This document shows positions 3,085-26,808 of a stretch of 40,052 nucleotides of DNA, one piece after another. The notes under the pieces are model-generated. The model ran no database searches, had not been told where the DNA came from, and was given only the letters and a program-made list of their open reading frames with translations. The position numbers and the translations under genes were made by a program. The DNA is from a virus, in IMG/VR virus record IMGVR_UViG_3300025327_000081, positions 1-40,052 of that record; one strand, given 5' to 3'. Each line of letters begins with the position of its first letter. The first letter of the stretch is position 1.

Positions 3085-3806
3085 CAGTTGTGCCCTCCCG
3101 GGCGGTCCCGCCGCCCGCTGCCCGTGGGGATGCCCCACGTCCGTGCTTGAGTAGGTTGGCCGGCCGGCGCGCCGCCGGTCTCCGTGATCGCCAGGCCGAT
3201 GATAGTGGCGTCGTCGGCGGTGTCCGAAGTGTAGCCCGCGGTCACATCCGCCGTACCGATGGTATCGTAGGTGAACACGCCCGCCGTCGCCACCCCGTAA
3301 TCGTCCTGGTACCTGTTGGTCCAGCTCGCCAGGGGAGTAATCATGCTCGGGGTCTGCCTCCCTGAAAAGTATCCAAGGCAGCAGAAGCAGTCCAGGCCCC
3401 CCAGGCTCAGCGTGAAGGAGGGGTCGTCTATGGCGGTGGAGTTGATCGAGTTGTCGGCATCCTGTACGACCAGGTCGGCGGCCGCGGTGAGGGTGATGCA
3501 AACGGCCGCCTTGGGGTCGGCGCCGCTGACGGTGACGACAACGGTCTGGTTGCCGGTCGGCACGCTGGAGAGCAGCGTGTAGGCGTACACTACGTCGGGT
3601 TCGCCGCCCGTCTTCCCGATGGGGCTCGCTGGGGCCTCGACCATCGCCGATCCGCCGTAAGTCACGCCGCTTACCTCGTCCGTGCCGCCGCCCTGCTGGA
3701 TGACGTACACGATCGCGCCGCGGGGCGTCCCGGCGGGCGTGTGCGTCCAGGACAGATCCCCTGTGCCCGGAGTCGCATTGGATATAGCGTCATAAGCGGC
3801 GGTCAT
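3084..3806 (-). CDS. Beta-rich virion protein, probably exposed (240 aa)
   Basis: The ATG at 3806 overlaps the upstream stop as ATGA and has GAGGG before it. The protein starts MTAAYDAISNATPGTGDLSW and reads as a beta-sandwich rich in Thr, Ser and Gly: WTHTPAGTPRGAIVYVIQQG, then VVYAYTLLSSVPTGNQTVVV and later AIDDPSFTLSLGGLDCFCC. This pattern is common in phage and metagenome proteins that decorate capsids or tails. The C-terminal 30 residues are low-complexity and basic. Exact role unknown. Confidence 0.7.
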   Translation of the reverse strand: MTAAYDAISNATPGTGDLSWTHTPAGTPRGAIVYVIQQGGGTDEVSGVTYGGSAMVEAPASPIGKTGGEPDVVYAYTLLSSVPTGNQTVVVTVSGADPKAAVCITLTAAADLVVQDADNSINSTAIDDPSFTLSLGGLDCFCCLGYFSGRQTPSMITPLASWTNRYQDDYGVATAGVFTYDTIGTADVTAGYTSDTADDATIIGLAITETGGAPAGQPTQARTWGIPTGSGRRDRPGGHN

Positions 3807-3970
3807 CTTGCCCTCGCCAAAATCGCCACGAGCGCCCCGCCCACCAGGAACCCATGCAGCCACCACAGCGCCGCCCAGGCCCAGGCCGGAATACATACCC
3901 GGCGCCTGGCGAACCCCGGCAGAACCGGGGTACACAATCCGCGCAGCTCGGCCAGTGGATCCACGCTCAT
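3803..3970 (-). CDS. Single-span membrane peptide (55 aa)
   Basis: This short gene runs from ATG 3970 (overlapping the endolysin stop as ATGA) to TGA 3803-3805 (overlapping the next start as ATGA), so it is locked into a coupled chain. The product is MSVDPLAELRGLCTPVLPGF, then ARRR and a tryptophan-rich span ending LVGGALVAILARAR. One transmembrane helix is likely. Next to the endolysin, a lysis accessory role (small holin, antiholin or spanin subunit) is plausible but unproven. Confidence 0.65.
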   Translation of the reverse strand: MSVDPLAELRGLCTPVLPGFARRRVCIPAWAWAALWWLHGFLVGGALVAILARAR

Positions 3971-4980
3971 CCCGGCTCCACCCCACCTGGTGTTTCGGCA
4001 GGCTCCATATACCGGCTCGCCCCGCCCTGCACGCACGCCCAGGCTCGCCCGCCCTGGTAATCGATCTCCACCCAGGCCGATGCGCCGGCGATATCCTGCA
4101 CGACCACGTGGTCGCCGGCCGAGAGTGAACCAATCGACGCGTAGACCGTGCCCGGCCCGGTGCGCACGTTCAGCCGGCTGGCGATCACCCGCATGCGCAG
4201 GCCCTGATCGGGTGGGGGTGGAGGCGGTGGGGGGCTTCCCGGCCAGGCGAACTCGGCGATCACCGGCCACAATTCGGGCAGCCGCTGCCGGGCGAACCAC
4301 CACTCCCAGAAATTGCAGCCCTGCACCAATATCTTGGCCTTCTCCAGGAACTCGGCCACGTCGCCGGGCGTCGCCGCCCAGCCGTTCCACTTGTACGCCG
4401 CCCCGGTGGGCACTACCGGCATATCCGGCTTCAGCGACTGGTATTCGCCCAGGCAGCGCTCGAGCTGCGCGCCCGGGTTGTGCGCCTGCTCCCAGTACAC
4501 CTGGGGCATGGCGAAATCGCAGAAGGTCAGGAACTCGTGGAAGGGGAACTCCCGGTGCAGCGAGGGGTAGCGGTACGAGCTGAGCGCCAAGGGCAGGTAC
4601 GGCAGCGCCCGCCGCAAGAGAGTCATGTAAGTGATGGCCGGCCCGGACATGCCCGGCGCCTTGAATTCCACCTCGGCGTTGACTACGAACCCATCCAGGC
4701 CCAGGTCGAGCGCCTGCCGGCTGGCGACCCCCGCCTCCAGCGCCGGCGACTGGCCGAAGATATATTGCCAGCCCCACGCCCGGATCCCTACCGCGTGCAG
4801 CGCCGCGACCAGTCCCGGTAGATCCGAGGCCGCGTTATAGCGGTAGATCCCGTTGGCCACCTTGATCAGCACGTGCGTCAGCCCGGCCGCCTGCGCCTCG
4901 CCGGCGATCGCCTGCACATTTCCGCCTTCGCAGTAGGGGATTTTCCAGGTGAAAAAGCCTTTGCCTGTGAGGATGCTCAT
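3967..4980 (-). CDS. Endolysin: TIM-barrel glycosidase-like plus SH3 domain (337 aa)
   Basis: The N-terminal about 245 residues read as a glycosidase-type barrel: GLTHVLIKVANG, IRAWGWQYIFG, GFVVNAEVEFK, FAMPQVYWEQ and MPVVPTGAAYKW follow the strand order of GH25-like and related barrels. A run of eight prolines forms a linker. The C-terminal 60 residues match a bacterial SH3 domain (SRLNVRTGPGTVYASIGSLS), which binds cell wall. The protein should cut peptidoglycan for release. It lacks a signal peptide, so it would need a holin. Start and stop overlap the neighbouring genes by 4 nt each. The family of the barrel is inferred by eye. Confidence 0.82.
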   Translation of the reverse strand: MSILTGKGFFTWKIPYCEGGNVQAIAGEAQAAGLTHVLIKVANGIYRYNAASDLPGLVAALHAVGIRAWGWQYIFGQSPALEAGVASRQALDLGLDGFVVNAEVEFKAPGMSGPAITYMTLLRRALPYLPLALSSYRYPSLHREFPFHEFLTFCDFAMPQVYWEQAHNPGAQLERCLGEYQSLKPDMPVVPTGAAYKWNGWAATPGDVAEFLEKAKILVQGCNFWEWWFARQRLPELWPVIAEFAWPGSPPPPPPPPDQGLRMRVIASRLNVRTGPGTVYASIGSLSAGDHVVVQDIAGASAWVEIDYQGGRAWACVQGGASRYMEPAETPGGVEPG

Positions 4981-5399
4981 TGTGGTTTCAGCGGCCCGGT
5001 TTGCGGCTTCCCGCCCAGGGCAATGACCTGTTCGGAGAGTCGCCCGATGGTGCGGTCATCGTCTTTTTTCTGGCGGGCCATCTCGTAGTTCTTCTCACGC
5101 CATTCGGCGGCCTGCTGTTCGGTCGTGCGGCGCCGCTCACGCTCTTCGTCCAGGCGCTTCTCGACGGTTTCCTTCTCGGCCTCGGATTCCTTCAGCGCCT
5201 CGGTCAGCTCCGCAATCCGGTCGCTCAGGTTGCGGATCAACGTCTCCGAGGCCTGCCTGGCCGAGTCTGTATCTCTCTTGAGATTGGCCGCAACGGCCAC
5301 CTTGCGTTCATCCCGCCGCTTAACGAACATAGGCACCAGCGCGACGGCGGCAGTGGTAGCGGCTCCGATGATGGCGACGATGACGGTTTCCCAGTTCAT
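4977..5399 (-). CDS. Membrane-anchored coiled-coil protein, spanin-like (140 aa)
   Basis: One N-terminal hydrophobic helix (VIVAIIGAATTAAVALVPMF) is followed by a basic stop-transfer (KRRDERK) and about 90 residues of heptad-like coiled coil rich in Glu, Arg and Lys. This is the layout of Rz-type inner-membrane spanins and of some holin-associated proteins. It sits between two holin-like genes and the endolysin, as Rz-like genes often do. No embedded lipoprotein Rz1 partner was identified. In a host with one membrane a spanin would not be needed, so the role is uncertain. Confidence 0.6.
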   Translation of the reverse strand: MNWETVIVAIIGAATTAAVALVPMFVKRRDERKVAVAANLKRDTDSARQASETLIRNLSDRIAELTEALKESEAEKETVEKRLDEERERRRTTEQQAAEWREKNYEMARQKKDDDRTIGRLSEQVIALGGKPQTGPLKPQ

Positions 5400-5408
5400 T
5401 ACCAGTAA

Positions 5409-5702
5409 TCATGTTCGAAAAAGCAATTTCTCGTAGGCAAGCATGATCATCACGCCCAGGATCAGGAAGGCGGCTTGCAGGCGGATGAGCACGGACCAAA
5501 AAGTAAAATCGATCCGGAGCGGGACGCCCAAATCACGGGCGAACACGAAGGCGTAGAAGACCAGAATGTGCAGGAGCCAGGTCACAGGTGGGATAGCATA
5601 CGGCCACTGGGCAGGGCTGCGCCGGACGTACAGGAGCGAGAAGGTCAGCGCCGCCAGGACTACGACCACCACGGCGATCTGCAGCGCCTGCTGGGTGGTC
5701 AT
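5409..5702 (-). CDS. Holin-like membrane protein (97 aa)
   Basis: MTTQQALQIAVVVVVLAALT begins the first of three hydrophobic spans (about 7-25, 38-57, 68-90), separated by short basic or polar turns. Size and topology fit a small holin or antiholin. The gene starts with an ATGA overlap with the other membrane gene upstream and is followed by the coiled-coil protein and endolysin. Which of the two membrane proteins is the holin cannot be told from sequence. Confidence 0.65.
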   Translation of the reverse strand: MTTQQALQIAVVVVVLAALTFSLLYVRRSPAQWPYAIPPVTWLLHILVFYAFVFARDLGVPLRIDFTFWSVLIRLQAAFLILGVMIMLAYEKLLFRT

Positions 5703-5977
5703 GTGGGTTTCGGCTTATTGCTCGCCAGATCGTGGATCAGGTTCGAACCGCCGCCGATCACAACGGTGGACAGCATCCGCCCCACCAGCAGGTTGGGGAT
5801 GTAATCGGCGAACAGGTTGATCTCCGAGAACCAGCCGATCAGCCCGCCCACGACCAGGCCGACGTACAAAAGGAAAAACGTATCGATCCCGAACCGCTTG
5901 AATGCCGGGCTGATCAGGTATTCGATCACCCGCTCGGCAACCAGGGCCAGGAAACCGGCGATAAGAAATTTCTCCAT
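5699..5977 (-). CDS. Holin-like membrane protein (92 aa)
   Basis: Starts MEKFLIAGFLALVAERVIEY. The ATG follows AGGA within the end of the 39-aa ORF. Hydrophobic segments lie at about 3-20, 33-52 and 67-80; the middle one (FLLYVGLVVGGLIGWF) is glycine-rich. It is the first sizeable gene after the late leader and terminator, as the holin S is in lambda. Overlaps the next membrane gene by 4 nt. A holin is the best inference. Confidence 0.65.
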   Translation of the reverse strand: MEKFLIAGFLALVAERVIEYLISPAFKRFGIDTFFLLYVGLVVGGLIGWFSEINLFADYIPNLLVGRMLSTVVIGGGSNLIHDLASNKPKPT

Positions 5978-5980
5978 CGC

Positions 5981-6100
5981 TCATTCCTGCCAGTAGGTAA
6001 ACCGGCCGGCGCCGATTCGAACGCGCTGCACGGCCTTGGGCTGCTGGAAGGCTCCCCAGCGTACCCAGCGACGAATATTGGCAAAAAGTAATAGTTTCAT
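5981..6100 (-). CDS. First ORF after the late terminator (39 aa)
   Basis: ATG 6100 is preceded by AAGGACACC and encodes MKLLLFANIRRWVRWGAFQQ, ending FTYWQE at TGA 5981-5983. It is basic and tryptophan-rich, and its end lies 3 nt before the holin-like start, whose SD it contains. It may be a small lysis-timing peptide or just a leader that couples ribosomes to the holin gene. Confidence 0.5.
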   Translation of the reverse strand: MKLLLFANIRRWVRWGAFQQPKAVQRVRIGAGRFTYWQE

Positions 6101-6129
6101 GGTGTCCTTTCTTTCGTAGATCGGCTTAA

Positions 6130-6247
6130 ACCAAAACCGGGGCGAAATCCGTTATTTACGGATTTCGCCCCGGTGGGATACCACACAGCCAGGCGAAGGC
6201 GAGGGTGCGCCTGCGGACCGCAAGGCACGGACTTCGCCCCGAAACTA
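6130..6247 (-). ncRNA. Late leader RNA (lambda 6S-like)
   Basis: Between the promoter at 6254-6282 and the terminator at 6136-6174 there is no ORF but about 110 nt of GC-rich sequence. Its 5' part holds GGGGCGAAGTCCGT (about 6217-6230), nearly the same as the terminator's left arm GGGGCGAAATCCGT. The copy could pair with the terminator's right arm and break the terminator. Layout matches the lambda late leader. Ends are estimated from the promoter and U-tract. Confidence 0.6.
6136..6174 (-). terminator. Strong intrinsic terminator before lysis genes
   Basis: Perfect 17-bp inverted repeat (6136-6152 with 6158-6174) around a 5-nt loop. On the minus strand the stem is followed by TTTTGGTTT, a U-tract. 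It lies between the late promoter and the lysis genes, so late expression needs read-through. Confidence 0.85.
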
Positions 6248-6253
6248 CCTCAC

Positions 6254-6282
6254 AGTATACAGGTCATTTGTTCTAGAGTCAA
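6254..6282 (-). promoter_or_regulatory. Probable late promoter
   Basis: On the minus strand: TTGACT (6277-6282), 17-nt spacer, TATACT (6254-6259). Near-consensus sigma70 promoter located 24 bp past the stop of the 139-aa gene and upstream of the leader and terminator. Confidence 0.8.
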
Positions 6283-6305: not shown

Positions 6306-6725
6306 TCAAGGATGCAAGGCGGTGGTCGAGCTGTCCGGCAGCGGCTTGATCTCATCCGTCTTGCCCGTCCTGGCCCGCACGTCGATGGTGGAGACGATCG
6401 AGCGGATCCGCCCGTGCTCCACGCTCAGCAAGATGGTGCCGAAGCCGTAACCCATCACCGTGCCCAGCTCGCCGGCCAGCGGCTCCAGCCAGGCGCCCAG
6501 GATCTCCGCCAGGCCGCCCGTCGAACGCAGTGACGGGACGCCCTGGGGAGGCTCGAACGCCCTGGCCGCCAGCGGGTTGAAGATCGCCCGGCCTGGCCTG
6601 AGCCAGCGCACCTGGTTCTTCTCGACGCGGACTTCCAGGTGGCCGAAGCCCTGGACGATCACCCGGACCAGCTCCTGGCACAATTGAACTTGTTGGATTG
6701 GATTGAGCAGGTTATCAAGGTCCAT
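6306..6725 (-). CDS. Unknown protein upstream of late promoter (139 aa)
   Basis: The start MDLDNLLNPIQQVQLCQELV (ATG 6725) is preferred because the longer frame would run through the promoter and operators. An early amphipathic helix is followed by a mixed segment (HLEVRVEKNQVRWLRPGRAI) and a beta-rich second half with VMGYGFGTILLSVEHGRIRS. No strong SD is visible. It lies on the same strand just upstream of the late promoter, the position of the antiterminator Q in lambda, but I see no sequence likeness to Q. A regulatory role is an inference from position only. Confidence 0.65.
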   Translation of the reverse strand: MDLDNLLNPIQQVQLCQELVRVIVQGFGHLEVRVEKNQVRWLRPGRAIFNPLAARAFEPPQGVPSLRSTGGLAEILGAWLEPLAGELGTVMGYGFGTILLSVEHGRIRSIVSTIDVRARTGKTDEIKPLPDSSTTALHP

Positions 6726-8291: not shown

Positions 8292-8320
8292 TTGACAGGG
8301 GGACTCGCGGCCTATATACT
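8292..8320 (+). promoter_or_regulatory. Consensus promoter for small RNA 1
   Basis: TTGACA (8292-8297), 17-nt spacer, TATACT (8315-8320). Followed within 55 bp by an intrinsic terminator and no ORF. Confidence 0.8.
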
Positions 8321-8326
8321 AGCAAT

Positions 8327-8404
8327 AGGTAGCAAAACAGGCAGCGATCCCATCCTGCCGCTACTGTCCATCTTGCCGCCAGTGGTCGCTGGCGGCTTTT
8401 CGTT
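8327..8404 (+). ncRNA. Candidate small RNA 1 (about 78 nt)
   Basis: Predicted from promoter to terminator. Two hairpins: GTAGC...GCTAC enclosing GGCAG...CTGCC (about 8330-8364), then the terminator stem. No start codon with an SD. The gap 8185-8660 holds no convincing gene, only this unit, small RNA 2 and the HTH promoter. Target unknown; ends estimated. Confidence 0.55.
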
Positions 8405-8437: not shown

Positions 8438-8467
8438 TTGTGGAAAATCGAACGGATAAGCTATAAT
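8438..8467 (+). promoter_or_regulatory. Promoter for small RNA 2
   Basis: TATAAT at 8462-8467 with TTGTGG at 8438-8443 (18-nt spacer). Just upstream, TTCGCG/CGCGAA arms (8404-8409, 8418-8423) form a possible operator. Confidence 0.6.
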
Positions 8468-8473
8468 CGGTGG

Positions 8474-8541
8474 GGTTGGGAGTTCTTACTCCCGTTCATC
8501 TTCCTGGAGGGCGTTGCCGGCGCTCTCCAGGTTTTTGTTTT
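8474..8541 (+). ncRNA. Candidate small RNA 2 (about 68 nt)
   Basis: Starts GGGGTTGGGAG and contains a 5-bp hairpin GGGAG-TTCTTA-CTCCC, an unpaired CGTTCATCTT stretch, then the terminator hairpin. The 60-codon frame across it crosses the terminator and lacks an SD, so it is not taken as a gene. Tandem position with small RNA 1 suggests related use. Ends estimated. Confidence 0.5.
8503..8541 (+). terminator. Intrinsic terminator of small RNA 2
   Basis: Stem 8503-8513 with 8521-8531 (11 pairs including one G-T), 7-nt loop, then TTTTTGTTTT. Confidence 0.85.
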
Positions 8542-9513: not shown

Positions 9514-9555
9514 TGGCGAGGGTGGGACTTGAACCCACAACCAAGGGCTTATGAG
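9514..9555 (-). other. Probable attP core: 3' half of tRNA(CAU)
   Basis: On the minus strand the 42 bp read as anticodon loop CTCATAA, 3' anticodon stem GCCCT, variable loop, T arm GTGGG-TTCAAGT-CCCAC, acceptor CCTCGCC and discriminator A. All distances fit a tRNA. The 5' half is missing: the next bases upstream do not pair with GCCCT. A lone tRNA 3' half beside an integrase gene is the usual attP core, restoring the host tRNA on integration. CAU means tRNA-Met or the lysidine tRNA-Ile. Confidence 0.85.
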
Positions 9556-9560
9556 AACAC

Positions 9561-9593
9561 GCAGACCAATGTCCTATAAAGACATTGGTCTGC
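9561..9593. repeat. Perfect 13-7-13 inverted repeat next to attP
   Basis: Arms GCAGACCAATGTC and GACATTGGTCTGC flank CTATAAA. No U-tract follows on either strand, so a plain terminator is unlikely. The 13-bp arms around a 7-bp centre have the shape of a tyrosine-recombinase core site. It lies 6 bp from the tRNA half and 30 bp from the integrase stop. Confidence 0.75.
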
Positions 9594-9623
9594 AAAAAGC
9601 AAAAAAAGACGAGCTGAGTACTC

Positions 9624-10628
9624 TCAGCCAAGGTCCGGCATGTGCCGGTCGTACTCCCGCTGGCGCTCGTCATCCGCGAACTGGCCGTAGTAGCGGTCCG
9701 TCACGCTCACGTTCTTATGCCCCATGAGCTGCGCGATCACCCCCAGGCTCATCCCCTGCTGGGCTAAGAGCCGCCCGAAGCGGTGCCTCCACTGGTGCGG
9801 GCTGAAATTCTTCTTCACCCCCGCCAGGATTGCAAACCGCTTGACCACCTGGTAGATCCCGCTCTCCCCCAGGGCCTGCCATTCCCCCCCGTTGACCTTC
9901 CCCAAGAACACGTGCTCATCGGCGATAGCCGTGCGCACCGCCAGCCATCCCTGCATCGCTTCCAGGGCGCTGGGCGTCATATACACCGGCCTTTCTTCGT
10001 CGAACTTCTCCCGTACGATGGCCCGCCGGTTCCTCGGCTCCGGCTCATCCAGCGCCAGGTCATCCAGCAGCAGCCCGGCCATCCCCCCCAATCTCGCCCC
10101 GGTACTCTCCAGGAAGCGCAAGAGCGCGTAGTCCCTCTCTCGCATCTCGGAATCTTCCCCCCCACGTTTCGCCAAAGCCAGGATCCGGCTCACATCCCCA
10201 TCCGCGATCCCCTTCCGGCCCGTCCTGGGTAAACGCGGAAATGCCAGCTTCCGGGCCGGGTCGGCCGGGACAATCCCCTGCTCCTCGAGCCACTTGAAGG
10301 ATACCTTGGCTGCCCGCACCAGGCTGTGCAGGTACGATGGCGAGAGTCCGCCCTTCGTTTTCGGATGCGAGCTCTTCCCGCCCCAGCGCAGCTTGCGCCC
10401 CTGCTGGCCCGCATACCACTCCAGCAAATCCGACTCCATCACCCCCACCGCCGGCGCGCCCGGCCCGAGCGTAGCCGAAAGCCCGGCCAGGCGCTTGCGG
10501 TACCATTGCACCGTCTTGGGGGATTTCCCCACCAGACCCAGGCGCAAAAACGTCTCCAGCGCCTGGGAGACCGTCGGCTGCTGCGCAGAATCGACAGCCG
10601 CCACCTTGGAAACACGATTGGTTTTCAT
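9624..10628 (-). CDS. int: Tyrosine recombinase / phage integrase (334 aa)
   Basis: Starts MKTNRVSKVAAVD after GGAGGGACGA. A helical core-binding domain (about 20-125) precedes the catalytic domain. Visible catalytic residues: R179 in GARLGG, H278 and R281 in HQWRHRF, H304 in LMGHK, and Tyr in DRYYG (313 or 314). This is the full set for strand exchange. The gene ends next to the tRNA-half attP, as is usual. It should integrate the phage into a host tRNA(CAU) gene. It is transcribed against the early operon. Confidence 0.95.
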   Translation of the reverse strand: MKTNRVSKVAAVDSAQQPTVSQALETFLRLGLVGKSPKTVQWYRKRLAGLSATLGPGAPAVGVMESDLLEWYAGQQGRKLRWGGKSSHPKTKGGLSPSYLHSLVRAAKVSFKWLEEQGIVPADPARKLAFPRLPRTGRKGIADGDVSRILALAKRGGEDSEMRERDYALLRFLESTGARLGGMAGLLLDDLALDEPEPRNRRAIVREKFDEERPVYMTPSALEAMQGWLAVRTAIADEHVFLGKVNGGEWQALGESGIYQVVKRFAILAGVKKNFSPHQWRHRFGRLLAQQGMSLGVIAQLMGHKNVSVTDRYYGQFADDERQREYDRHMPDLG

Positions 10629-13326: not shown

Positions 13327-14427
13327 ATGGATATCCAGCTTCCTCCCCGTTTCGTGGCGGTGCCGGCCAAAGTCATTTACTCCGACCTGGTCTCCTCATC
13401 GGATAAGGAATTCTTCCTCCGGCTGCTGGGCCTGGCCTGGGAGTATGACTATAAGCGCACCGCCGATCTCCCCTTGAAAGATCTGCTCCGGTTCCTGGGC
13501 ATTTCCCATGCCACCTTCTACCGCAAAATCGGAAAGCTGGCGAGTGAGGCCTGGCTGCTGTCCATGCCTACCCGCCCCGGCTGCGTTCGGTTCGCTTTTC
13601 CGCTTTCGCAGAATGGCCAGGGAAATGCCCAGGAACCGGCGAGTCTCAAGTTTGAGACTCGAGTCTCAAACTTGAGACTCCCTCCGGAGGATGAGGATGA
13701 GGAGGAGGATCTATTAATTAATTTAAAAGATCCTCCTCCTCCTCATCCTCCTCAGAGTCTCAAAAATGAGACAGTCTCAAAAATGAGACTCCTGCAATCC
13801 GCCGGCGTCAAGCCCGATATCGCCCAAAAGGTTGACCAGGACCCCGAAACCAGCCTCGACGATATCCTGGCCAATATCGCCTACGCCCATGATCCCAGGA
13901 TCAGCGCCCGGCAGCCGGCCATCATCCTGGGCATCAACCTGCTCAACGGCTACCGCCCGGACGCCACCTATTATGGCGATCCCGCCCGGATCCCCGCCGC
14001 CATCCTCGAGCGCGCCGGCCTGGCCAGCCTGTTGGAGCCGGACTCCAGCGATGGAGCCGAGCCCACAGATGAGCCTACGGCCTATCCACAGGTGGACCCC
14101 GGCGAACCTTCAACCGGGGTGGAGCACGTGGTCGCGCCCAGTCCGGATCTCGACCAGCTCATTTCCGGCACCTTCACTGCCCGCAAAGCCTGGCAGGCCG
14201 CCCGCGATCAGCTCCAGATGGAGCTGCCCAAGGCCGTCTTCGACGCCTGGCTCAGCCAGGCCGAGCTGCTCGCCTACCGGGATGGCGCCTTCACCATCGG
14301 CTGCCCTAATGCCTATGCCGCCATGTGGTTGGAAAGCCGGTTGACCTCGACCCTCACCCGCTTGCTGACCGGCATCTGCAACCGGTCCGCCGGCGTCCAA
14401 TTCGTAGCACTCAGCCTCGCCGAATAA
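13327..14427 (+). CDS. Replication protein: winged-helix N-terminus plus DnaA-N domain (366 aa)
   Basis: Residues 20-85 (LVSSSDKEFFLRLLGLAWEY, then LPLKDLLRFLGISHATFYRK) form a winged helix of phage replication initiators. Residues about 105-160 are a low-complexity linker dictated by repeats in the DNA (see origin). The last 75 residues match DnaA domain I: WQAARDQLQMELPKAVFDAW, then GAFTIGCPNAYAAMWLESRL and VQFVAL. DnaA domain I binds the replicative helicase and helper proteins, so the protein likely opens the origin and recruits host helicase, as lambda O does via P. parB starts 28 bp downstream, past a parS-like site. Confidence 0.85.
   Translation: MDIQLPPRFVAVPAKVIYSDLVSSSDKEFFLRLLGLAWEYDYKRTADLPLKDLLRFLGISHATFYRKIGKLASEAWLLSMPTRPGCVRFAFPLSQNGQGNAQEPASLKFETRVSNLRLPPEDEDEEEDLLINLKDPPPPHPPQSLKNETVSKMRLLQSAGVKPDIAQKVDQDPETSLDDILANIAYAHDPRISARQPAIILGINLLNGYRPDATYYGDPARIPAAILERAGLASLLEPDSSDGAEPTDEPTAYPQVDPGEPSTGVEHVVAPSPDLDQLISGTFTARKAWQAARDQLQMELPKAVFDAWLSQAELLAYRDGAFTIGCPNAYAAMWLESRLTSTLTRLLTGICNRSAGVQFVALSLAE
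13641..13791. other. Probable replication origin inside the initiator gene
   Basis: Four iterons: GAGTCTCAAGTTTGAGACTC (13641-13660), its reverse complement (13661-13680), and two shorter copies with core GTCTCAAAAATGAGAC (13755-13772, 13773-13790). Between them, a 14-bp inverted repeat (13699-13712, 13728-13741) encloses 15 bp of pure A/T (13713-13727). Palindromic iterons plus an unwinding-type AT core within the initiator's linker is the arrangement of the lambda origin. Confidence 0.82.
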
Positions 14428-14443
14428 CGTTCGCACGCGAACA
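14428..14443 (+). promoter_or_regulatory. parS-like 16-bp palindrome, site 3
   Basis: CGTTCGCACGCGAACA, with the full 14-bp core. It lies in the 27-bp gap between the initiator and parB, ending 11 bp before the parB start and just upstream of its SD (AGGAG). Well placed for ParB autoregulation. Confidence 0.75.
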
Positions 14444-14454
14444 CAGGAGCAACG

Positions 14455-16329
14455 ATGTACTATATCCCTCTCAACCTGATTGATCCGAATCCCTGGCAGC
14501 CCCGCCAGGCGTCAGACCCCGGCAAGATCCACGAATTGGCCACCAGCATCCTGTCCTATGCCAACTCCCATCCGGACACCGGCGGGCTTTTGCAGCTCCC
14601 CGCCGGTCGCCTGGTCGGACTCGACCCCGATCAGAAATGGTCAGGGGTAGACATTCAGGATATGCCCACATCCGGCGATCTGACCGGCTGGCTGATGGAC
14701 TTGGGCCTGATCTATCGCATTCAGCTCGCCTATGGCCACCGGCGGCTCGAGGCGTTCAAAGAGCTGGGTTCGAACCGCTTGCCGGTCGAGTTGGGCAAAT
14801 ACACCGACGAAGAGATGGCGACCATGGCCTGGGCGGAGAATAACGACCGCGAAGATCTGACCCCCATCGACCGGGCCTTGTTTGCCCAGAAGATCATCCA
14901 GGACTTCAACCTTACCCAGGAGAAAGCCGCCAAGAAACTCAACATGTCCCGGCCGGCCATCTCCAACCTGCTCCGCCTGCTCAAGCTGCCCGCCGATGTG
15001 CAGGCCCACCTGGCTTCCGGCCAGATCTCCCCCCGCCAGGCGGATGCCCTGCTCTCCCTGTTCAGCTTGCCCGAAGAGATTCGTAAGAAAGCGGAAATCC
15101 ATTGGGAAGAGAATGTCAAACCATCCGCCATCCTAAATGCTGCCGTCGAAGGCGAATCCTCCGAGAATACCCGCAAGCGCGTCACGCAGCTCACCGAGCG
15201 TTATGCAGAAAAGCTCAATAACGCCCCCTGGTCGCTCGCCCTGGTCTTCGCAGACTACCCCAACCGGCATGCCCCCGCCTGCTCCCAATGCGACGCCCGG
15301 CTGGATGAAGGCAACTGGAATTACTGCACCCTGCCGGAATGCTTCCGCTCTCGCTATAAAGCTTTCCAGCAGGACTACCTCCAGCGCGCCGGCCAGGTGT
15401 GCGGCATCCCGCCCCTCGAGGGAGACCGGGACCTCTACCGCACCACCTCTCTCTACAGAGAGCACGCCCAGATCCTCGCCACGAAATGCGAGAACCTGCG
15501 CCTGATCTACGAAGGCCGCCATAATGGGGCGTTTCCCCATCCGGAGGGCTTCCCCGAGGCCCGCATCCTCTGCCAGAAGCAAAACCAGTTCTGCACCTGC
15601 CTCAAGGGCCTGGAGCAAATGCAGAAAAGCGCCGCCCGGCCCCAGGCAGCCGAGAGCCAGGCCCTGCCTGACGGCAGCCAGGCTCCGGACCAGATGCAAG
15701 ATTCCGCGCTCTCTGGCCCGACTGCCGAGGAGCTGGAGGATGCCGCCCGCGTTGCCCGCGTTGCCCAGAAAGAGCGCCGCCGGCAGGTGCTCGACCTGGC
15801 CCGCCAGGCCTCCAACCTGTTCGCCGATGCCATGGACCGCGACGAGCCGGCTGCCTGGCGCCAGCTCGCCGGCAAACTCATCGGCTGGAGTCGTGTTGAC
15901 GATCTGAAAGAACTCGCCTCATCCGAGATCCGTAGGCGCATCGCCGATAAGCTGTCCGAAGAGCACAGCTACGACTACACCGGCGACTCCCGGCCCGATG
16001 ACGCCCTTCACCGCCTGAACGAGTGGCTAAAAGAGTCTGGCCTGCCCGCCCTGCGCCTGGATGGCTCCACGGCCGGGAATGACCCCCTCTCCGCCATCCT
16101 GCGCCGCTGGGGCCGCATCCAGGGCTGGCTGGAGCAGAACATCGAGACCGCCCCGCCCTATGCCATGCGCGGCAACCACGATAACCTGGAGCGCCTCAAC
16201 CTGGACCTGCATGAGCTGATCCAGGCCGGCCAGGCCCGCGCCGACGATCCGCTCCTGGCCGAGATCTACGGCGACCGTGGCTTCGCCTACTGGCTAGACC
16301 GGCTGGAGGCGCAACATGAAGAAGCCTAA
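14455..16329 (+). CDS. parB: ParB-family DNA-binding protein, enlarged (624 aa)
   Basis: Starts MYYIPLNLIDPNPWQPRQAS. CTP-binding ParB motifs: PNPWQPR (11-17), GHRR (94-97, usual G-E-R-R) and ENNDREDLTP (128-137), then an HTH (about 153-175, QEKAAKKLNMSRPAISNLLR). About 40 extra residues (45-85) split the N domain. After residue 260, where normal ParB has its dimer domain, a long C-terminus carries two Cys pairs (CSQCD...CTLPEC, then CQKQNQFCTC), likely zinc sites. It probably binds the dispersed 16-mers and works with ParA. It could instead be a ParB-like regulator. Confidence 0.88.
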   Translation: MYYIPLNLIDPNPWQPRQASDPGKIHELATSILSYANSHPDTGGLLQLPAGRLVGLDPDQKWSGVDIQDMPTSGDLTGWLMDLGLIYRIQLAYGHRRLEAFKELGSNRLPVELGKYTDEEMATMAWAENNDREDLTPIDRALFAQKIIQDFNLTQEKAAKKLNMSRPAISNLLRLLKLPADVQAHLASGQISPRQADALLSLFSLPEEIRKKAEIHWEENVKPSAILNAAVEGESSENTRKRVTQLTERYAEKLNNAPWSLALVFADYPNRHAPACSQCDARLDEGNWNYCTLPECFRSRYKAFQQDYLQRAGQVCGIPPLEGDRDLYRTTSLYREHAQILATKCENLRLIYEGRHNGAFPHPEGFPEARILCQKQNQFCTCLKGLEQMQKSAARPQAAESQALPDGSQAPDQMQDSALSGPTAEELEDAARVARVAQKERRRQVLDLARQASNLFADAMDRDEPAAWRQLAGKLIGWSRVDDLKELASSEIRRRIADKLSEEHSYDYTGDSRPDDALHRLNEWLKESGLPALRLDGSTAGNDPLSAILRRWGRIQGWLEQNIETAPPYAMRGNHDNLERLNLDLHELIQAGQARADDPLLAEIYGDRGFAYWLDRLEAQHEEA

Positions 16330-16567
16330 AGCGGCTCCCCGCCGCAGGCCCAGGTTCCACCGCGGCGAGCAGGTCCACCTGCTCCGCTTTCTCCCGCCGA
16401 TCCTGTCCGGCTCCACCGTTGCCATCCTGGAAGTGCGCGATGTGGGCCGGGAATACCGCTACCAGGTCGACTCCACCGAGTACCCGGAGAAGCCGGTCTG
16501 GGCCAGCGAAGACGACCTGGCATACCCCATGGACCCCGGCGCAGCCGGGCAGGAGCACAGCCGATGA
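16316..16567 (+). CDS. Small basic protein (83 aa)
   Basis: MKKPKAAPRRRPRFHRGEQV begins inside the last codons of parB (14-nt overlap). A basic tail is followed by a small beta-barrel-like domain (HLLRFLPPILSGSTVAILEV, then YRYQVDSTEYP). SH3- or KOW-like folds have such patterns. Coupled to the next gene by ATGA. Function unknown. Confidence 0.65.
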   Translation: MKKPKAAPRRRPRFHRGEQVHLLRFLPPILSGSTVAILEVRDVGREYRYQVDSTEYPEKPVWASEDDLAYPMDPGAAGQEHSR

Positions 16568-16692
16568 ACGCCATCCGCATCTTCATCCTTTGCATCCTGC
16601 TAGGCCGCCACATCAAACGCTACGACCTGCGCGAAGACCGCATCTGGTGCGCCCGCTGCCACTACGAGTTCTACCCCGAAGAGCGCCCATGA
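16564..16692 (+). CDS. CxxC mini-protein (42 aa)
   Basis: MNAIRIFILCILLGRHIKRY, then RIWCARCHYEFYPEE. It starts in the previous stop (ATGA) and stops in the next start (ATGA), so it is a locked operon member. A hydrophobic head and a CxxC zinc-type pair. Function unknown. Confidence 0.6.
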   Translation: MNAIRIFILCILLGRHIKRYDLREDRIWCARCHYEFYPEERP

Positions 16693-17180
16693 CCCCCGCC
16701 ATCCCCATCGACAGCCTGCCCGCCTTCCTGGAGCGCAATCGTCTGCGCCAGGAGCGGGCCGAATGGGGCTGGGAGCCGGGCGCCGAGCCGACCGTCTATG
16801 TTTCCCGTCTCCAGCCTGCCCTGCCCGGCCTTCCACCGGTGGAACAGGAGGCAAAGCCCTCACCCCCCCCTGTTCCACCCGCCCGGCCTTCGAAGCTGGC
16901 CCTGACTCTCGCCGGCATGCTGCGCCAGGCTGCCGCCCGCCCGGCCTCCGTCCAATCGAAAAATCTCTTCCGCGGCCTGCGCGTGGATATCATGGTGGGC
17001 ATCGACGGTCAGACCCGGCTCATGATCGCCAGGAAAGGCGTCTACCCGTCGGATGCCGAATGGGTCACCATCCTGTCCTACTGGCCCTATGACCCTCCGG
17101 ATATGGTCCCGGAGAAATTCGAATATAAACAGTGGCGCTGCATGCGCGCCGTCTGGCCCACTCCGGAGGTGCAGCCATGA
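16689..17180 (+). CDS. Unknown early protein (163 aa)
   Basis: Starts MTPAIPIDSLPAFLERNRLR at an ATGA overlap. A helical head, a Pro-rich linker (about 50-70), and a C-terminal beta domain (FRGLRVDIMVGIDGQTRLMI, then WVTILSYWPYDPPDMVPEKF). The last part recalls small phage proteins near partition or transfer genes; not recognised. Confidence 0.7.
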   Translation: MTPAIPIDSLPAFLERNRLRQERAEWGWEPGAEPTVYVSRLQPALPGLPPVEQEAKPSPPPVPPARPSKLALTLAGMLRQAAARPASVQSKNLFRGLRVDIMVGIDGQTRLMIARKGVYPSDAEWVTILSYWPYDPPDMVPEKFEYKQWRCMRAVWPTPEVQP

Positions 17181-17269
17181 AGCAAAGACAGTTCGAGCAA
17201 GCTTTTCTGATCGTGATCCTGGCGGCGCTGGCCCTCGTCGCGCTGGCCAAAGCCTTCCACCTGTACTAA
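17177..17269 (+). CDS. Single-span membrane mini-protein (30 aa)
   Basis: MKQRQFEQAF followed by a hydrophobic helix (LIVILAALALVALAKAF). Starts in the previous stop (ATGA). A short basic head and one span. It could be a small partner of the membrane FtsK-like motor downstream. Confidence 0.5.
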   Translation: MKQRQFEQAFLIVILAALALVALAKAFHLY

Positions 17270-17270
17270 A

Positions 17271-17319
17271 AGCCGGGCCGTTCAAGGCGGCCCGGCTGCC
17301 GGGGAGAGTGCTCCCGGCA
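17271..17319 (+). terminator. Two tandem hairpins after the mini-protein gene
   Basis: A 10-bp stem (17271-17280 with 17288-17297) then a 7-bp stem (17297-17303 with 17313-17319), sharing one base. Neither has a good U-tract, so it may be a partial terminator or an RNA-processing site between the parB and ftsK groups. Confidence 0.45.
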
Positions 17320-17352
17320 GGTTAATTGTATTTGAAAGATTGGAGAGTGCAA

Positions 17353-17817
17353 ATGACCAAACTCATTGTTTTCATCGGTATATTGGCCCTGGCCACCCTG
17401 GGCTTGCTGTCCTGGTCCGCCTCGCTGTCGAACAACGCCGTCGAGATCGCCCAGGCCCAGGCCGCTATCCAGGCCGCACGTGCGGCCCAGGACGCTGCCC
17501 AGGCCGCCCAGATCGCCGCTCGCGGCCTGTCGGCCGTGTCCGTGATCAACTCCCTGATCCTCCTGGTCCTGCTGGCCATCTGCCTGGCGCTGGTGGTGCT
17601 GCTGGGCTACTACGTCATCACCCACCGCCCCAGACCGCAGTGGGCGCCTGGCCCGAACGCCAATTTCCGCCGGGTGAACCAGCCCCGGCTGCCGCAGGCG
17701 GCCCCCACCGCCCAGGACATCCTCAATGCCATCATCTATCAGCAGGTCGCCGGCGGGAAACAAATCCAACTGTCGCAGCCTCCCGAAGAGCCGGGGGAAA
17801 GTGAGATCGAATGGTAG
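17353..17817 (+). CDS. Two-span membrane protein (154 aa)
   Basis: ATG 17353 (MTKLIVFIGILALATLGLLS) with GGAG 7 nt before. A first span at 3-20, an Ala-Gln-rich helix (QAQAAIQAARAAQDAAQAAQ), a second span (about 65-90), then a proline-rich cytoplasmic tail. Overlaps the ftsK-like gene by 7 nt, and the layout repeats that of its N-terminus (span, long Ala-rich helix, span). A membrane partner of that motor is a fair inference. Confidence 0.7.
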   Translation: MTKLIVFIGILALATLGLLSWSASLSNNAVEIAQAQAAIQAARAAQDAAQAAQIAARGLSAVSVINSLILLVLLAICLALVVLLGYYVITHRPRPQWAPGPNANFRRVNQPRLPQAAPTAQDILNAIIYQQVAGGKQIQLSQPPEEPGESEIEW

Positions 17818-19808
17818 CGCGCATCCTTCTTCTCCTGACCGTGGGCGCCCTGGTCTGGGGTGGGTGCAGCGCGCTCGTGCCGGGCGGGTCGCCATTTGGC
17901 ATCCCGCCTGCTGACCCGTCCGAGGCGGCAGTCTGGTCCGCCGACCGTACCCGGCAGGTACGCCAGGAAGGAAACCGCCAGGCAACCCTGGAAGCGGGGC
18001 AGCTTGAGCATGAGCAATCCGCCCAAGATACCCTGGACGCCAAGCAAGCCAAGCTTGACTCCGAGAAACGCGCCCTGGAAGAGGCCGCGGCCGCCCGCCG
18101 GGAAGAGTCCACCCGCGCCGCCCAGGCCCGCCTCGAGACCGCCGAAGCCACCCGCCAGCTAGCCACCATCGTGGTCCAGGAGACGGCTGCAGAGCGGGAT
18201 TGGATCGCCCAGGGCTGGACGGCTACCGCTGATAGCGTGCTCGCAGCCGCCAAGGCCACCGGCGACCAGGCCGCCGCCTGGAGGCAGGAGACCGCTGACG
18301 CGGCCGCCGTGCAGGCGCTCTCCACCGCCCAAGCCGCTCAGGCCCTGGTGGCAGCCCAGAAAGCCGAACAGGAACGGCTGAACACCGAGCGGCTCGTGAT
18401 CCGCAAATCGTTCGACGCCTGGGCGCCGTACCTGATCGGGTTGCTCATCGGGTCCGTAGTCGTGGCCGGCCTGTGGTACTGGCGCCGCCACCAGGTGGTG
18501 CCGCGCGATTCCAACGGACTCTTGCCGGGTATTCGGGTGGGCGATAGGGTGCTCGACCCAGAGCGCTCCATTCTGCCTGTTCTGGATCCGAAGATGCCGG
18601 TCCAGGCCAACCTGGCAGCCCATCTGCAGATCACCGAAAATGCCCAGAAAGTACAGGCGCTCAAGCAGCTCCAGGGGAAAGGTACTCCATCCCAGGCCCT
18701 GGGCCTGCTCAAATCCGCCCCGGCTGCATCGCCGGCTGCCAACGGCAATGGGAATGGGAATGGCGCCCACCTGCCCCCGGCGAGCTGGTCCCAGTTCGAG
18801 CGCGAGACCGGCCTGGCCATTCCGCTTGGAACGGGACCCAACGGGACTCTCCACCTTCCGGACCCGGAAGAATATCCACATCGCCTGCTCGCCGGCGCCA
18901 CGGGTGGCGGGAAATCCCGCTACGGCATTCGCCCCTATACAGCCGGCGCTCTGGGGCGCGGCTGGAATGTGGTCGCCCTGGGCGACCGCCGGCCGGTCGA
19001 TCTGAAGATCTTCACCAGCCATCCGAACTTCTACGACCTCACCCAGGACGACCCGGCCGAGATCGTGCGCTACCTGGCAGCCATCCAGGTCGAGATCAAG
19101 CGCCGGGAGGCCATGCTGTGGGATGCGGGCGCTTCCACCTGGTCGCGCCTTTCCCACCCGGATCCACGCGTGGCGATCGTGTTCGACGAGTTTGCCGCCC
19201 TCATCGATGCCTTAGAGGGGCCGACCAAGGCCAATTTCATCCGGCTGGTGAGCAATATCTCGCGCCTGGCGCGCAAGGTCGGCATCCACCTGGTGTGCGG
19301 AGTCCAAAACCCCACCGCCGACAATATCCGCCCTAGCATCAGGAGGAACATGCTGCCCGTGGCGTTCAAGGTCATCGACCAGGCCGCCAGCCGGGTCATC
19401 CTGGAATCCGATGGGGCGGAGAAACTGGTGCCGCCGCAGTACATGGCCCGCTGGACCGGACTCTGGCATGGGGTCGGGTTCGATCCCACCGATGAGCAGA
19501 TCGGCAATTACCTGGCCTCTCGCCAGGTGCCGGCCTACGACATGCCGGTATTCCTGGTCAAGCTGCCTGAGCCGGACGATCCGATCCTCCTGGAAGCGCA
19601 GGCCGAATCGGGAGTCCAGCGCCTGGCGGAGCAGATCCGCCCGGAGTGGGAGAAGGGCGCCAGCAAGCGGGCCATGGCGCGGGCCGCCGGCCGGGAATAC
19701 GCCGGCTGGTTTGCCGCCCAGATCGATAAGGCCATCGAGTATTTGAGTGCTACTACTACTTCCCTGGATGGCCAGGGTAGCGCCCCCGGGGTAGCCGGGG
19801 CGAAGTAG
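17811..19808 (+). CDS. FtsK/SpoIIIE-type membrane DNA translocase (665 aa)
   Basis: N-terminal hydrophobic segment with a Cys (WGGCS, weak lipobox) at 5-25, an Ala-Glu-rich coiled coil (about 50-195), a membrane span (206-224), a Gly-Asn linker (NGNGNGNG, about 311) and a RecA-like motor. Walker A GATGGGKS (362-369), Walker B VAIVFDE (454-460), then SRLARKVGIHLVCGVQNPTA as in FtsK/TraB motors. It likely pumps double-stranded DNA through or along the membrane. No gamma-type sequence reader domain is visible. Beside ParB and ParA it may aid partition or transfer between cells. Such motors also serve conjugation in actinomycete plasmids. Confidence 0.85.
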   Translation: MVARILLLLTVGALVWGGCSALVPGGSPFGIPPADPSEAAVWSADRTRQVRQEGNRQATLEAGQLEHEQSAQDTLDAKQAKLDSEKRALEEAAAARREESTRAAQARLETAEATRQLATIVVQETAAERDWIAQGWTATADSVLAAAKATGDQAAAWRQETADAAAVQALSTAQAAQALVAAQKAEQERLNTERLVIRKSFDAWAPYLIGLLIGSVVVAGLWYWRRHQVVPRDSNGLLPGIRVGDRVLDPERSILPVLDPKMPVQANLAAHLQITENAQKVQALKQLQGKGTPSQALGLLKSAPAASPAANGNGNGNGAHLPPASWSQFERETGLAIPLGTGPNGTLHLPDPEEYPHRLLAGATGGGKSRYGIRPYTAGALGRGWNVVALGDRRPVDLKIFTSHPNFYDLTQDDPAEIVRYLAAIQVEIKRREAMLWDAGASTWSRLSHPDPRVAIVFDEFAALIDALEGPTKANFIRLVSNISRLARKVGIHLVCGVQNPTADNIRPSIRRNMLPVAFKVIDQAASRVILESDGAEKLVPPQYMARWTGLWHGVGFDPTDEQIGNYLASRQVPAYDMPVFLVKLPEPDDPILLEAQAESGVQRLAEQIRPEWEKGASKRAMARAAGREYAGWFAAQIDKAIEYLSATTTSLDGQGSAPGVAGAK

Positions 19809-19827
19809 TAGTAGCAGTAGTAGCACT
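19746..19827. repeat. Compound inverted repeat at the end of the ftsK-like gene
   Basis: Outer arms AGTGCTACTACTACTTC (19746-19762) and 19802-19827 (with an extra 9-bp TAC/GTA unit) enclose two inner hairpins: CCCTGG/CCAGGG and CGCCCC/GGGGCG. It spans the last codons and the stop and ends before the next SD. It could form a cruciform or RNA multi-hairpin. Function unknown. Confidence 0.65.
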
Positions 19828-19841
19828 TTAGGAGCAAGACC

Positions 19842-19874
19842 ATGAGCCTGAAATATCCCTTAGGAGGTCTATGA
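19842..19874 (+). CDS. Possible 10-codon leader ORF
   Basis: AGGAGCAAGACC before ATG; codons read MSLKYPLGGL. Its stop overlaps the next start (ATGA), and the next gene's SD (AGGAGG) lies inside it. May couple translation, or be chance. Confidence 0.35.
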   Translation: MSLKYPLGGL

Positions 19875-20110
19875 AAATCGGCATGCTCTGGTTCGATAAC
19901 GATCCCAAGGCCGATCTCAAAGTAAAGATCGAGCGCGCCGCCAGCTACTACTCGAAGAAATACGGCCAGGCCCCCAACCTGTGCTTCGTTCATCCCAGCA
20001 TGGCGCCCGCGCCCAATGGCAAGCCGGACAGCATCGAGATCCGCGCTAACCGATCCGTCCGGCCCAATCATTTCTGGATCGGCGTTGCCGATCAGGCGGT
20101 GCAGCCATGA
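19871..20110 (+). CDS. Unknown protein upstream of parA (79 aa)
   Basis: AGGAGG lies 3 nt before ATG. MKIGMLWFDNDPKADLKVKI, then YYSKKYGQAPNLCFVHPSMA and RPNHFWIGV. A compact alpha/beta look with conserved-looking Trp, Asp and His residues. Overlaps parA by 4 nt (ATGA), so likely part of the same complex or pathway. Family not named. Confidence 0.75.
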   Translation: MKIGMLWFDNDPKADLKVKIERAASYYSKKYGQAPNLCFVHPSMAPAPNGKPDSIEIRANRSVRPNHFWIGVADQAVQP

Positions 20111-20892
20111 CCACCGTGATCAGCGTGGTCAATCAAAAGGGCGGCGTGGGTAAAACTACCAGCGTCGTCAACCTGGGTGATATCCTCGCCCGCATGGGCC
20201 TGACCGTGCTCATCATCGATACCGACACCCAGGGCAACTGCGCCGATCTCCTGGGCCTGCCGGCCGGGAATGAGCTGATTCGTATGCTCCACCCGGATCA
20301 GCAGCAGCCCCTGGACCAATGCATCATCGACACCGGCCGGGAGCGCTTGCAGATCATCCGCTCGGACAAAACCACCGCTCAGCTCAAATCTGCCCTGGCC
20401 GGCAATGGCCTGGCTGCCTTCGTCCTGGCGGAAGCCCTGGCGAGCTGCAAACACGATGTGGTGCTGATCGACTGCGCTCCCTCGCTCGACCTGACCATCC
20501 ACCTGGCGGTCTTGATTGCCAGCCACTGGATCCTCATCCCGGCCCACCTACAGCAGCTTGCCATCAAAGGCGTTCGGGAAGCATTTCAATCCATCGTTAC
20601 TGCCGGCCGTCATAGCGCGGTGCAGGTAACCGGCATCCTGCCCACCTTCCTGGATAACACCGAGAAAGAGAGCAAAATCCAGCTCATCAACCTGGTCAAA
20701 GCCTTTGGCGAGAAAGTCTACCCGCCGATCCCGGTGGACGCGAAAGCTAAGGAGGCCCCCCGTTTTGGGAAAACGCTCAACGAATATGCCCCTGGCTGCC
20801 GCTCCCTGTTTGGCTACAAAAACGGTGGCGGCCGCCAGGTCGGCGGATACTTGCAAGTCGCCGCCCGCCTGGTGAAGGACCTCGATCTATGA
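20107..20892 (+). CDS. parA: ParA-type partition ATPase (261 aa)
   Basis: Starts MTTVISVVNQKGGVGKTTSV: deviant Walker A KGGVGKTT at 11-18 with the signature Lys. Switch region IIDTDTQGN (36-44), Walker B VVLIDCAPSLDLT. About the usual length for a chromosomal or plasmid ParA without an HTH extension. It moves DNA-ParB complexes on the nucleoid. ATGA overlaps join it to genes on both sides. Candidate partners are ParB (14.4 kb) and the ribbon-helix-helix protein at 21.2 kb. Confidence 0.95.
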   Translation: MTTVISVVNQKGGVGKTTSVVNLGDILARMGLTVLIIDTDTQGNCADLLGLPAGNELIRMLHPDQQQPLDQCIIDTGRERLQIIRSDKTTAQLKSALAGNGLAAFVLAEALASCKHDVVLIDCAPSLDLTIHLAVLIASHWILIPAHLQQLAIKGVREAFQSIVTAGRHSAVQVTGILPTFLDNTEKESKIQLINLVKAFGEKVYPPIPVDAKAKEAPRFGKTLNEYAPGCRSLFGYKNGGGRQVGGYLQVAARLVKDLDL

Positions 20893-21167
20893 TCGAAAAA
20901 ATAGGCTCCGGTTTCGGGACGATGCAAATCGCTGCGCGGAAGCTGCGTGAGCAATACAATGATTTGGTTGCTGTTCTCAAAATTTATGAAGGTCTATCCG
21001 GAGATGTTTACTACGCAGTGACAGGAAACATCCCGGCAGAGATTGAAAATGGCAGCCGCCGTCATGTCGTGATCATCTGCGAACCCAATCAACTATCTAA
21101 CGCCGGCGCGGCTTGCAGGGCTGGCGTCCAAGACAGGCCGGAATTCTGGCTCTCGGTATGGGATTGA
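20889..21167 (+). CDS. Unknown protein after parA (92 aa)
   Basis: MIEKIGSGFGTMQIAARKLR, then LVAVLKIYEGLSGDVYYAVT and RRHVVIICEPNQLSNAG. Alpha/beta, with base use lower in GC than the flanks. Coupled to parA by ATGA. Not recognised. Confidence 0.65.
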   Translation: MIEKIGSGFGTMQIAARKLREQYNDLVAVLKIYEGLSGDVYYAVTGNIPAEIENGSRRHVVIICEPNQLSNAGAACRAGVQDRPEFWLSVWD

Positions 21168-21168
21168 T

Positions 21169-21609
21169 ATGAATAATGACAAGGATGGCTTAATCAATTT
21201 CACTGACCTGGGTGGCTTAGACCCGGCGATCAGCTCCGTCCTGGGCGGCTTCGAACGCCAGGAACAGCGCAAGTCGCTCTCTCCGGAAGAGCGCAAGAAG
21301 CTGCGCAAGAAAGAGCAGAAACAGGCGAAGGAGCGCCGGCGGATGCAGCAGCGCGCCGAAAACCGCGTGACACTCGACCTGCCCTCCGGCATGAAAGCCA
21401 GGCTCGAAGAGATTGCCAGTGAAGAGTCCATCAACGTCAGCCAGCTCGCCGCCTTCTTGATCGCCTATGCCCTGCGCGAGTACCCTGGCCTGCCCCTGTC
21501 CGAACACAAGACCAGCTCGCGCACCCCCAAACACGACTTCAACCTGGCCGCCCCCGGGGGATGGTGGAAACCCGAAAAGCCAGAAAACGAAGGGCGACCT
21601 TCGAAATAA
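21169..21609 (+). CDS. Ribbon-helix-helix DNA-binding protein (146 aa)
   Basis: The acidic N-terminus is followed by a very basic coiled stretch (KKLRKKEQKQAKERRRMQQR) and an RHH domain (about 65-105: NRVTLDLPSGMKARLEEIAS, then SINVSQLAAFLIAYAL), as in CopG and ParG-type proteins. The RHH strand RVTLDLP would contact DNA. Its own 3' end and the next 60 bp contain AAGGGCGACCT iterons, the likely target. ParA with an RHH partner and iterons is the layout of type Ib partition systems. Confidence 0.8.
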   Translation: MNNDKDGLINFTDLGGLDPAISSVLGGFERQEQRKSLSPEERKKLRKKEQKQAKERRRMQQRAENRVTLDLPSGMKARLEEIASEESINVSQLAAFLIAYALREYPGLPLSEHKTSSRTPKHDFNLAAPGGWWKPEKPENEGRPSK

Positions 21610-21663
21610 TGCAGGTCGCCCTTCAGGGTAGCCCTATAAGGGCGACGTAGAAGGGCGACCTGC
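21590..21663. repeat. AAGGGCGACCT iteron cluster after the RHH gene
   Basis: Copies at 21590-21600 (+), 21613-21623 (-), 21638-21646 (partial, +) and 21651-21661 (+). Copies two and four form perfect 14-bp inverted arms (21611-21624, 21650-21663), with an inner GCCCT-ATA-AGGGC hairpin. Likely operator or centromere for the RHH protein. No gene is seen from 21610 to 21771. Confidence 0.7.
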
Positions 21664-22005: not shown

Positions 22006-22008
22006 TCA

Positions 22009-26805: not shown

Positions 26806-26808
26806 CGG

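Follow-up and report, generated by a model that had tools for sequence, protein, structure and literature searches.

The Q protein contains a helix-turn-helix (HTH) and binds a DNA site, QBE, located between the -35 and -10 boxes; trp-type attenuators are composed of four segments with alternative pairings and a leader peptide. Q is used at the late-operon site of lambdoid phages (PMC6606751) and, like AlpA and P7, acts by loading onto RNA polymerase and closing its exit channel (PMC6606751, PMC9371919, PMC9378689). In HK022, the put RNAs follow the early promoters, and such structured leader RNA, made from a phage promoter, counters termination with no need for a dedicated protein (PMC9378689). 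For BglG/SacY/LicT, RAT sites are bulged stem-loops of ca. 30 nt lying over the 5' arm of a terminator, the two structures being mutually exclusive, with the regulator gene adjoining the RAT site (PMC9981650, PMC3369936, PMC1489936). In ANTAR systems (EutV/NasR), a terminator-adjacent hairpin shares the 5' strand of the terminator and acts as an antiterminator (PMC3369936).

The locus described here belongs to a virus record of 40,052 bases, analysed over its whole length and hereafter called the window. From sequence comparison we favour, with moderate confidence, a RAT-like transcription-attenuation switch at the head of the late operon, the factor of which would most likely be a DUF2292-like protein.

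With the lambdoid Q/pR'/tR' region, the locus shares a late promoter, a short leader and a terminator ahead of the lysis genes, as well as a candidate regulator gene immediately upstream and in the same orientation; it differs in that the conserved element is an RNA structure beside the terminator and in that the leaders of many relatives are only ca. 25-45 nt long. Likeness to RAT sites resides in a stem-loop that overlaps the 5' arm of the terminator and is exclusive with it, as found in a group of related leaders (family I, see below) and, by folding only, in the window; here too, a candidate regulator gene lies next to the site. The differences concern the operon, a phage late operon here and a sugar operon for BglG/SacY/LicT, and the RNA, which has another sequence and another bulge pattern (one 7/2 internal loop). 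As in ANTAR systems, the hairpin beside the terminator shares its 5' strand, but a single bulged element with a loop of 3-4 nt is involved here, whereas ANTAR has two hairpins whose loops carry A1/G4 residues. HK022 put comprises two adjacent stem-loops, ca. 70 nt in all, and acts at a distance via RNA polymerase, whereas family I has one 31-nt bulged stem-loop and the element overlaps the very terminator on which it would act. The window segments resemble trp-type attenuators in pairing as 1:2 plus 3:4 versus 2:3 (plus 1:4), although the window has no leader peptide and segment 1 was seen only in the window phage.

Late promoter, leader and terminator

The minus-strand genes of the window run from its right end downwards, beginning with the terminase large subunit (TerL) and continuing with portal, protease, major tail, tape measure and tail protein genes; a second minus-strand block holds the lysis genes (6100-3967) and further late genes. 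The early region lies on the plus strand, with ParB-, FtsK- and ParA-like genes. The features relevant to late control are as follows.

37819-39492, minus strand: TerL, first of the minus-strand genes from the right end downwards
6306-6725, minus strand: 139-aa DUF2292-like protein, candidate regulator (HMM E 0.003; hhalign E 1.4e-4)
6254-6282, minus strand: putative late promoter TTGACT-17 nt-TATACT, 10/12 to the sigma-70 consensus; equivalents at the same place in relatives
6227-6241, minus strand: segment 1, copy of the terminator left arm, CGGGGCGAAGTCCGT, 15 nt, one G-for-A relative to the left arm
6191-6198, minus strand: segment 2, CUUCGCCU, 5' strand of the putative antiterminator, 7 pairs with 6170-6164
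6173-6184, minus strand: hairpin GUGG-UAUC-CCAC, 4 bp, abutting the terminator arm; place and size of family I helix P2
6158-6174, minus strand: segment 3, terminator left arm, 17 perfect pairs
6136-6152, minus strand: segment 4, terminator right arm, 17 perfect pairs
6126-6135, minus strand: terminator tail TTTGGTTTAA
5981-6100, minus strand: first late ORF, 39 aa, RBS-like AAAGG ahead of the ATG
5699-5977, minus strand: holin-like ORF, 92 aa, by position and hydrophobic sequence, no family match
5409-5702, minus strand: second small membrane-like ORF, 97 aa, by position, no family match
4977-5399, minus strand: coiled-coil ORF, weak family matches only
3967-4980, minus strand: endolysin-like protein with an SH3 domain (SH3_3, E 9.7e-8), homologs in TerL-related phages

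The near-consensus leftward promoter at 6254-6282 and the perfect 17-bp terminator at 6136-6174, both part of the original prediction, were borne out, and the latter (6174-6136) is the longest terminator-like stem detected in the window. When the minus strand was scanned for sigma-70-like promoters, no further one occurred from 3226 to 6254; none occurred either in the 20 kb carrying the structural genes (20053-40052), so that the promoter at 6282 is the best late-gene candidate under the sigma-70 consensus. Transcription would start at about 6247, with ca. 73 nt of leader from there to the terminator and a predicted terminated RNA of ca. 115-120 nt, which fits the ca. 110 nt without an ORF proposed earlier. 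Two frames are open in this leader, one from GTG (6228-6097) and one from TTG (6223-6152), neither with an evident ribosome-binding site, and a leader peptide was rejected on that ground. The whole leader folds with z = -4.6, and its search against Rfam returned sub-threshold matches only, none at the curated threshold. The first late gene starts shortly past the terminator, with no intervening promoter in the window or in the leaders read.

Relatives were gathered through TerL and endolysin homologs, wherever the region before the lysis genes was readable. Sequence and comparison together establish that the expected pR'-leader-tR' layout is found again, where the late operon begins, in many of them, ca. 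20 related phages having a promoter, a short leader and a terminator followed by lysis genes despite unrelated leader sequences. A scan of 1.36 Mb for promoter, terminator and ribosome site gave matches before the lysis genes of G007, G013, G017, G018, G029, L156, L158, L160, L162, L163, L174 and L197; in G013, the layout is found at both contig ends, with different leaders and the same first lysis gene. Inspection of the sequence ahead of holin homologs and DUF2292-like genes added L283, L287, L292, L294, L296, L102, L168, L172, L175 and L024, while pattern searches added L115, L300 and L307. For L168, L172 and L175, the one clear promoter box is -10-like, no -35 box having passed the scan. 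Similarity searches with the leader DNA yielded short pieces and one real clue, G018. This relative has its leader, the lysis genes, the endolysin gene and TerL in succession on a single strand, and because of this order the window leader (6254-6136) is most likely the head of the late operon, the two ends of the window being unjoined in the sequence. Since the genomes with endolysin homologs are those of Anaerolineae and other Chloroflexota, the hosts of the window phage and its relatives are probably Anaerolineae, in which gene regulation has been little studied.

The terminator tails of L100, L105, L115, L097, L156, L160 and others have a common form (T4-6, G or CG, T3-5, mostly then AA) that may represent a host-specific terminator signature. 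On the plus strand of the window, noncoding DNA ahead of an HTH regulator gene (8661) holds two further promoter-leader-terminator units in tandem, at 8292-8396 and about 8440-8531; the leader at 8292-8396 is a bulged stem-loop (GGUAGC-AAAACA-GGCAG...CUGCC-GCUACU), and these units are possibly early-region attenuators or small RNAs. Also on the plus strand, DnaA_N-, ParB-, FtsK- and ParA-like genes (13327-20892) are found in this integrase-bearing phage and correspond perhaps to a plasmid-like phase or to borrowed partition genes. The tyrosine integrase gene (9624-10628) lies beside a stretch (9515-9600) that resembles the 3' half of a tRNA gene (GGTTCAAGTCCCACC, minus strand) and is a probable attachment site.

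Proposed antiterminator stem-loop and folds of the window leader

Family I comprises eight leaders with a 31-nt bulged stem-loop that occupies the 5' arm of the terminator. An outer helix, in most cases GACCY paired to GGGUC, is combined in this element with a UAGANNA-like bulge, a hairpin of 4 bp (P2) and CG. The terminator left arm doubles as the 3' strand of that helix, and the two folds are mutually exclusive. Comparison of these leaders establishes covariation of the antiterminator: 72 of the 72 cells are paired, compensatory changes affect five of the nine pairs and the covariation score reaches 0.488, against 0.265 +/- 0.039 when shuffled (0/500 shuffles for score and for cells), while slid controls were 32-72% paired. 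The clearest case is that of the sisters L097 and L300, in which an outer-helix pair is U-A and C-G, respectively; the left-arm A of L097 produces an A-C mismatch in the terminator, at the cost of one terminator base pair, with the antiterminator pair kept.

A covariance model (R1) trained on seven of the eight leaders matched only late leaders in 0.96 Mb, including that of L175, absent from the training set, at E 1e-8. Besides its lysis leader, L031 carries a second family I promoter-leader-terminator directly past TerL (5817-5936), and the presence of the element at two sites suggests that one factor would act at two places. Across 50 genomes with endolysin homologs, mostly of Anaerolineae, the model gave two weak matches (E 0.004-0.008) that were treated as chance, so that the element looks phage-borne. 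Family II displays one compensatory pair only and is too thin for use, which counts against a switch.

Model R1 found no credible match in the window leader with filters off, and this was also counted against a switch. The likeness of the window to family I is geometric (a 6-7 nt bulge, a 4-bp hairpin, CG and the left arm), the UAGANNA bulge sequence being absent. In its putative antiterminator, 6197-6191 would pair with 6170-6164 and enclose the hairpin at 6184-6173. Folding predicts this structure as the lowest-energy nascent fold until the right arm emerges and, for both the window and family I, nascent-transcript folding forms the antiterminator first and the terminator last. An energy test of left-arm capture alone gave 6/300 for the window, most other leaders being not significant and L162 and L287 negative; these tests are weak and not decisive, were unused as proof and were counted against a switch.

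The original prediction also held that the leader copies the left arm with one G-for-A change. The copy is present and has this change, but it lies at 6241-6227, some 10 nt from the 6217-6230 first given. Its core (GGGGCGAAGTCCGT) is at 6240-6227, and the 14-nt copy is the sole zero-mismatch match in the window besides the two terminator arms; such a match inside an 80-nt leader is far beyond chance. Segment 1 has two alternative partners, namely segment 2, for 8 bp, and the right arm, for 15 pairs of which one is G-U. Pairing with the right arm, as had been proposed, is possible and would lie only 3.1 kcal/mol above the ground state, the complete alternative folds of the leader having -63.5 and -60.4 kcal/mol. 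The gap was 20.4 +/- 3.4 kcal/mol in 1000 shuffled leaders, 0/1000 being as small, and rose to 19.1 kcal/mol when the copy alone was scrambled; the small gap arises because the copy itself nearly duplicates the left arm. By these energies a switch is possible in the window leader, which does not imply that it is used. Of the built-in RNA switch formerly envisaged, this possibility stands, but the conserved antiterminator pairs an upstream segment with the left arm, with the 4-bp hairpin inside. Covariation in relatives had been suggested as a check; the copy is present in none of the relatives seen and has for that reason no covariation support of its own. It is best read as a segment pairing with either segment 2 or the right arm, the former being its likelier role because right-arm pairing would be long-range and late.

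The gene upstream of the leader

The 139-aa gene had been placed where Q sits in lambda. Its position agrees with this, a related gene being conserved there, but the product resembles DUF2292 and not any Q protein. It has no match in Pfam or PHROGs, the DUF2292 model of Pfam missing it, and direct searches of viral contigs with the 139-aa and 92-aa proteins found nothing. Small genes near the promoter of relatives matched DUF2292 in Pfam (L097, 6.5e-5; L102, 1.5e-4; L115, 0.027), with the L097 neighbour alone above the curated cut-off of PF10055 (22.9 vs 22 bits). A profile built from eight DUF2292-like proteins was run against six-frame translations of the phage loci and matched only genes upstream of a late leader or of lysis genes; the 139-aa gene was its only match in the window, at the E-value listed above, and hhalign backs the likeness for the C-terminal half (E 1.4e-4, probability 52%). 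The protein is taken as a DUF2292-like match and, being only a marginal one, was counted against a switch.

The predicted model of the 139-aa protein has two helix plus beta-hairpin repeats, at low confidence, resembling the single one of the DUF2292-like family, whose model is a helix-helix-beta hairpin with no HTH visible. Fold searches with the family model gave no significant match, including none to a known RNA-binding protein, which again counts against a switch. The 139-aa protein has no Q homology and no HTH apparent in the models (its own being of low confidence), and the CAT/PRD domain is absent from it and from the DUF2292-like neighbours, unlike in BglG/SacY regulators. By its protein, the locus belongs to neither the RAT/BglG nor the Q family; in function, the analogy holds.

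Comparison further establishes a linkage between gene and leader: in nearly all phages in which a DUF2292-like gene was found, it precedes the late leader, a linkage partly biased by sampling because many loci were fetched around lysis genes. In a partly blind test, 396 genomes of the same class as Longilinea yielded three DUF2292-like matches. A leader and terminator lie directly downstream of the gene in L316, a prophage close to L102, and in L318, there with no promoter scored; in L317, no leader follows the gene, which counts against a switch. Partly blind as well, L307 was found by its RNA alone and has a same-motif gene directly upstream, with an HMM E of only 0.65. In G013 (ends L098 and L107), L162 and L024, a zinc-ribbon gene instead of a DUF2292-like gene precedes the late promoter, and this too was counted against. 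It is conceivable, though on balance doubtful, that DUF2292-like proteins form an unrecognised family of RNA-binding antiterminators that turn on the late genes of phages through stabilisation of a RAT-like stem-loop lying over the late terminator, with gene and leader changing together across phages and a zinc-ribbon protein as stand-in in some of them.

The L318 genome, of the class named above, has its DUF2292-like match at about 1404-1641; its leader shows a CGACCC/GGGUCG antiterminator and a terminator, followed by an apparent second DUF2292-like gene.

Competing explanations and the proposed switch

A protein of Q type, loading onto RNA polymerase at a DNA site embedded in the promoter and closing the RNA exit channel, would make the leader folds secondary. 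Layout and gene position are as in Q-pR'-tR', and a TANNNT-like TAGTTT, a possible -10-like pause element of the initially transcribed region, was noticed by inspection at about +1 to +6, inconsistently in the few relatives inspected. We nevertheless regard this explanation as improbable, since the relatives conserve an RNA stem-loop beside the terminator and not a promoter site, no clear direct-repeat site occurs in the promoter spacer and the helix-helix-beta hairpin of the DUF2292-like model lacks a visible HTH. Less probable again is a leader RNA that would itself bind RNA polymerase for processive, protein-independent antitermination as in HK022 put: bulged stem-loops do occur close behind promoters, among them one ahead of a terminator in the early region of the window, but the single family I element overlaps its terminator, an overlap that put does not need, and with a constitutive element late timing would have to come from regulation of the promoter. 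Finally, a terminator serving as plain insulator or small-RNA end, with late genes under an unrecognised promoter or factor and the leader likeness a remnant of terminator duplication, would suit a copy confined to the window phage among those seen, which could be a duplicated arm, but is very improbable as the first late gene follows soon past the terminator with no promoter between, and as family I covariation and the second L031 copy are unexpected of such a remnant.

In the attenuation switch that we favour, one sigma-70-like promoter would drive a short leader ending at a strong intrinsic terminator. Without a signal, only the RNA of ca. 115 nt would be made, and the lysis, packaging and structural genes would stay off. 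Before the right arm is transcribed, the leader would fold into the bulged stem-loop occupying the terminator left arm; unaided, this stem-loop would be displaced by the longer terminator helix. Late in infection, a phage factor, most likely the upstream DUF2292-like protein, would hold the stem-loop and RNA polymerase would read through. In the window, the copy at 6241-6227 would favour termination when paired with segment 2 and read-through when paired with the right arm, a four-segment arrangement resembling a trp attenuator. We infer here the window's own antiterminator, the dependence of read-through on it, the small protein as factor and the time of its action; the DUF2292-like protein probably works the switch.

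DUF2292 is mentioned by just two papers in the literature searched, and with its linkage to the late leader it gains a concrete, testable role as a candidate late-gene regulator. As an RNA switch, the window leader would be compact and close to balance. The classical activators of phage late genes are proteins loaded onto RNA polymerase at the DNA of the promoter; here an RNA fold is conserved, and its role in late control would be to disarm the terminator.
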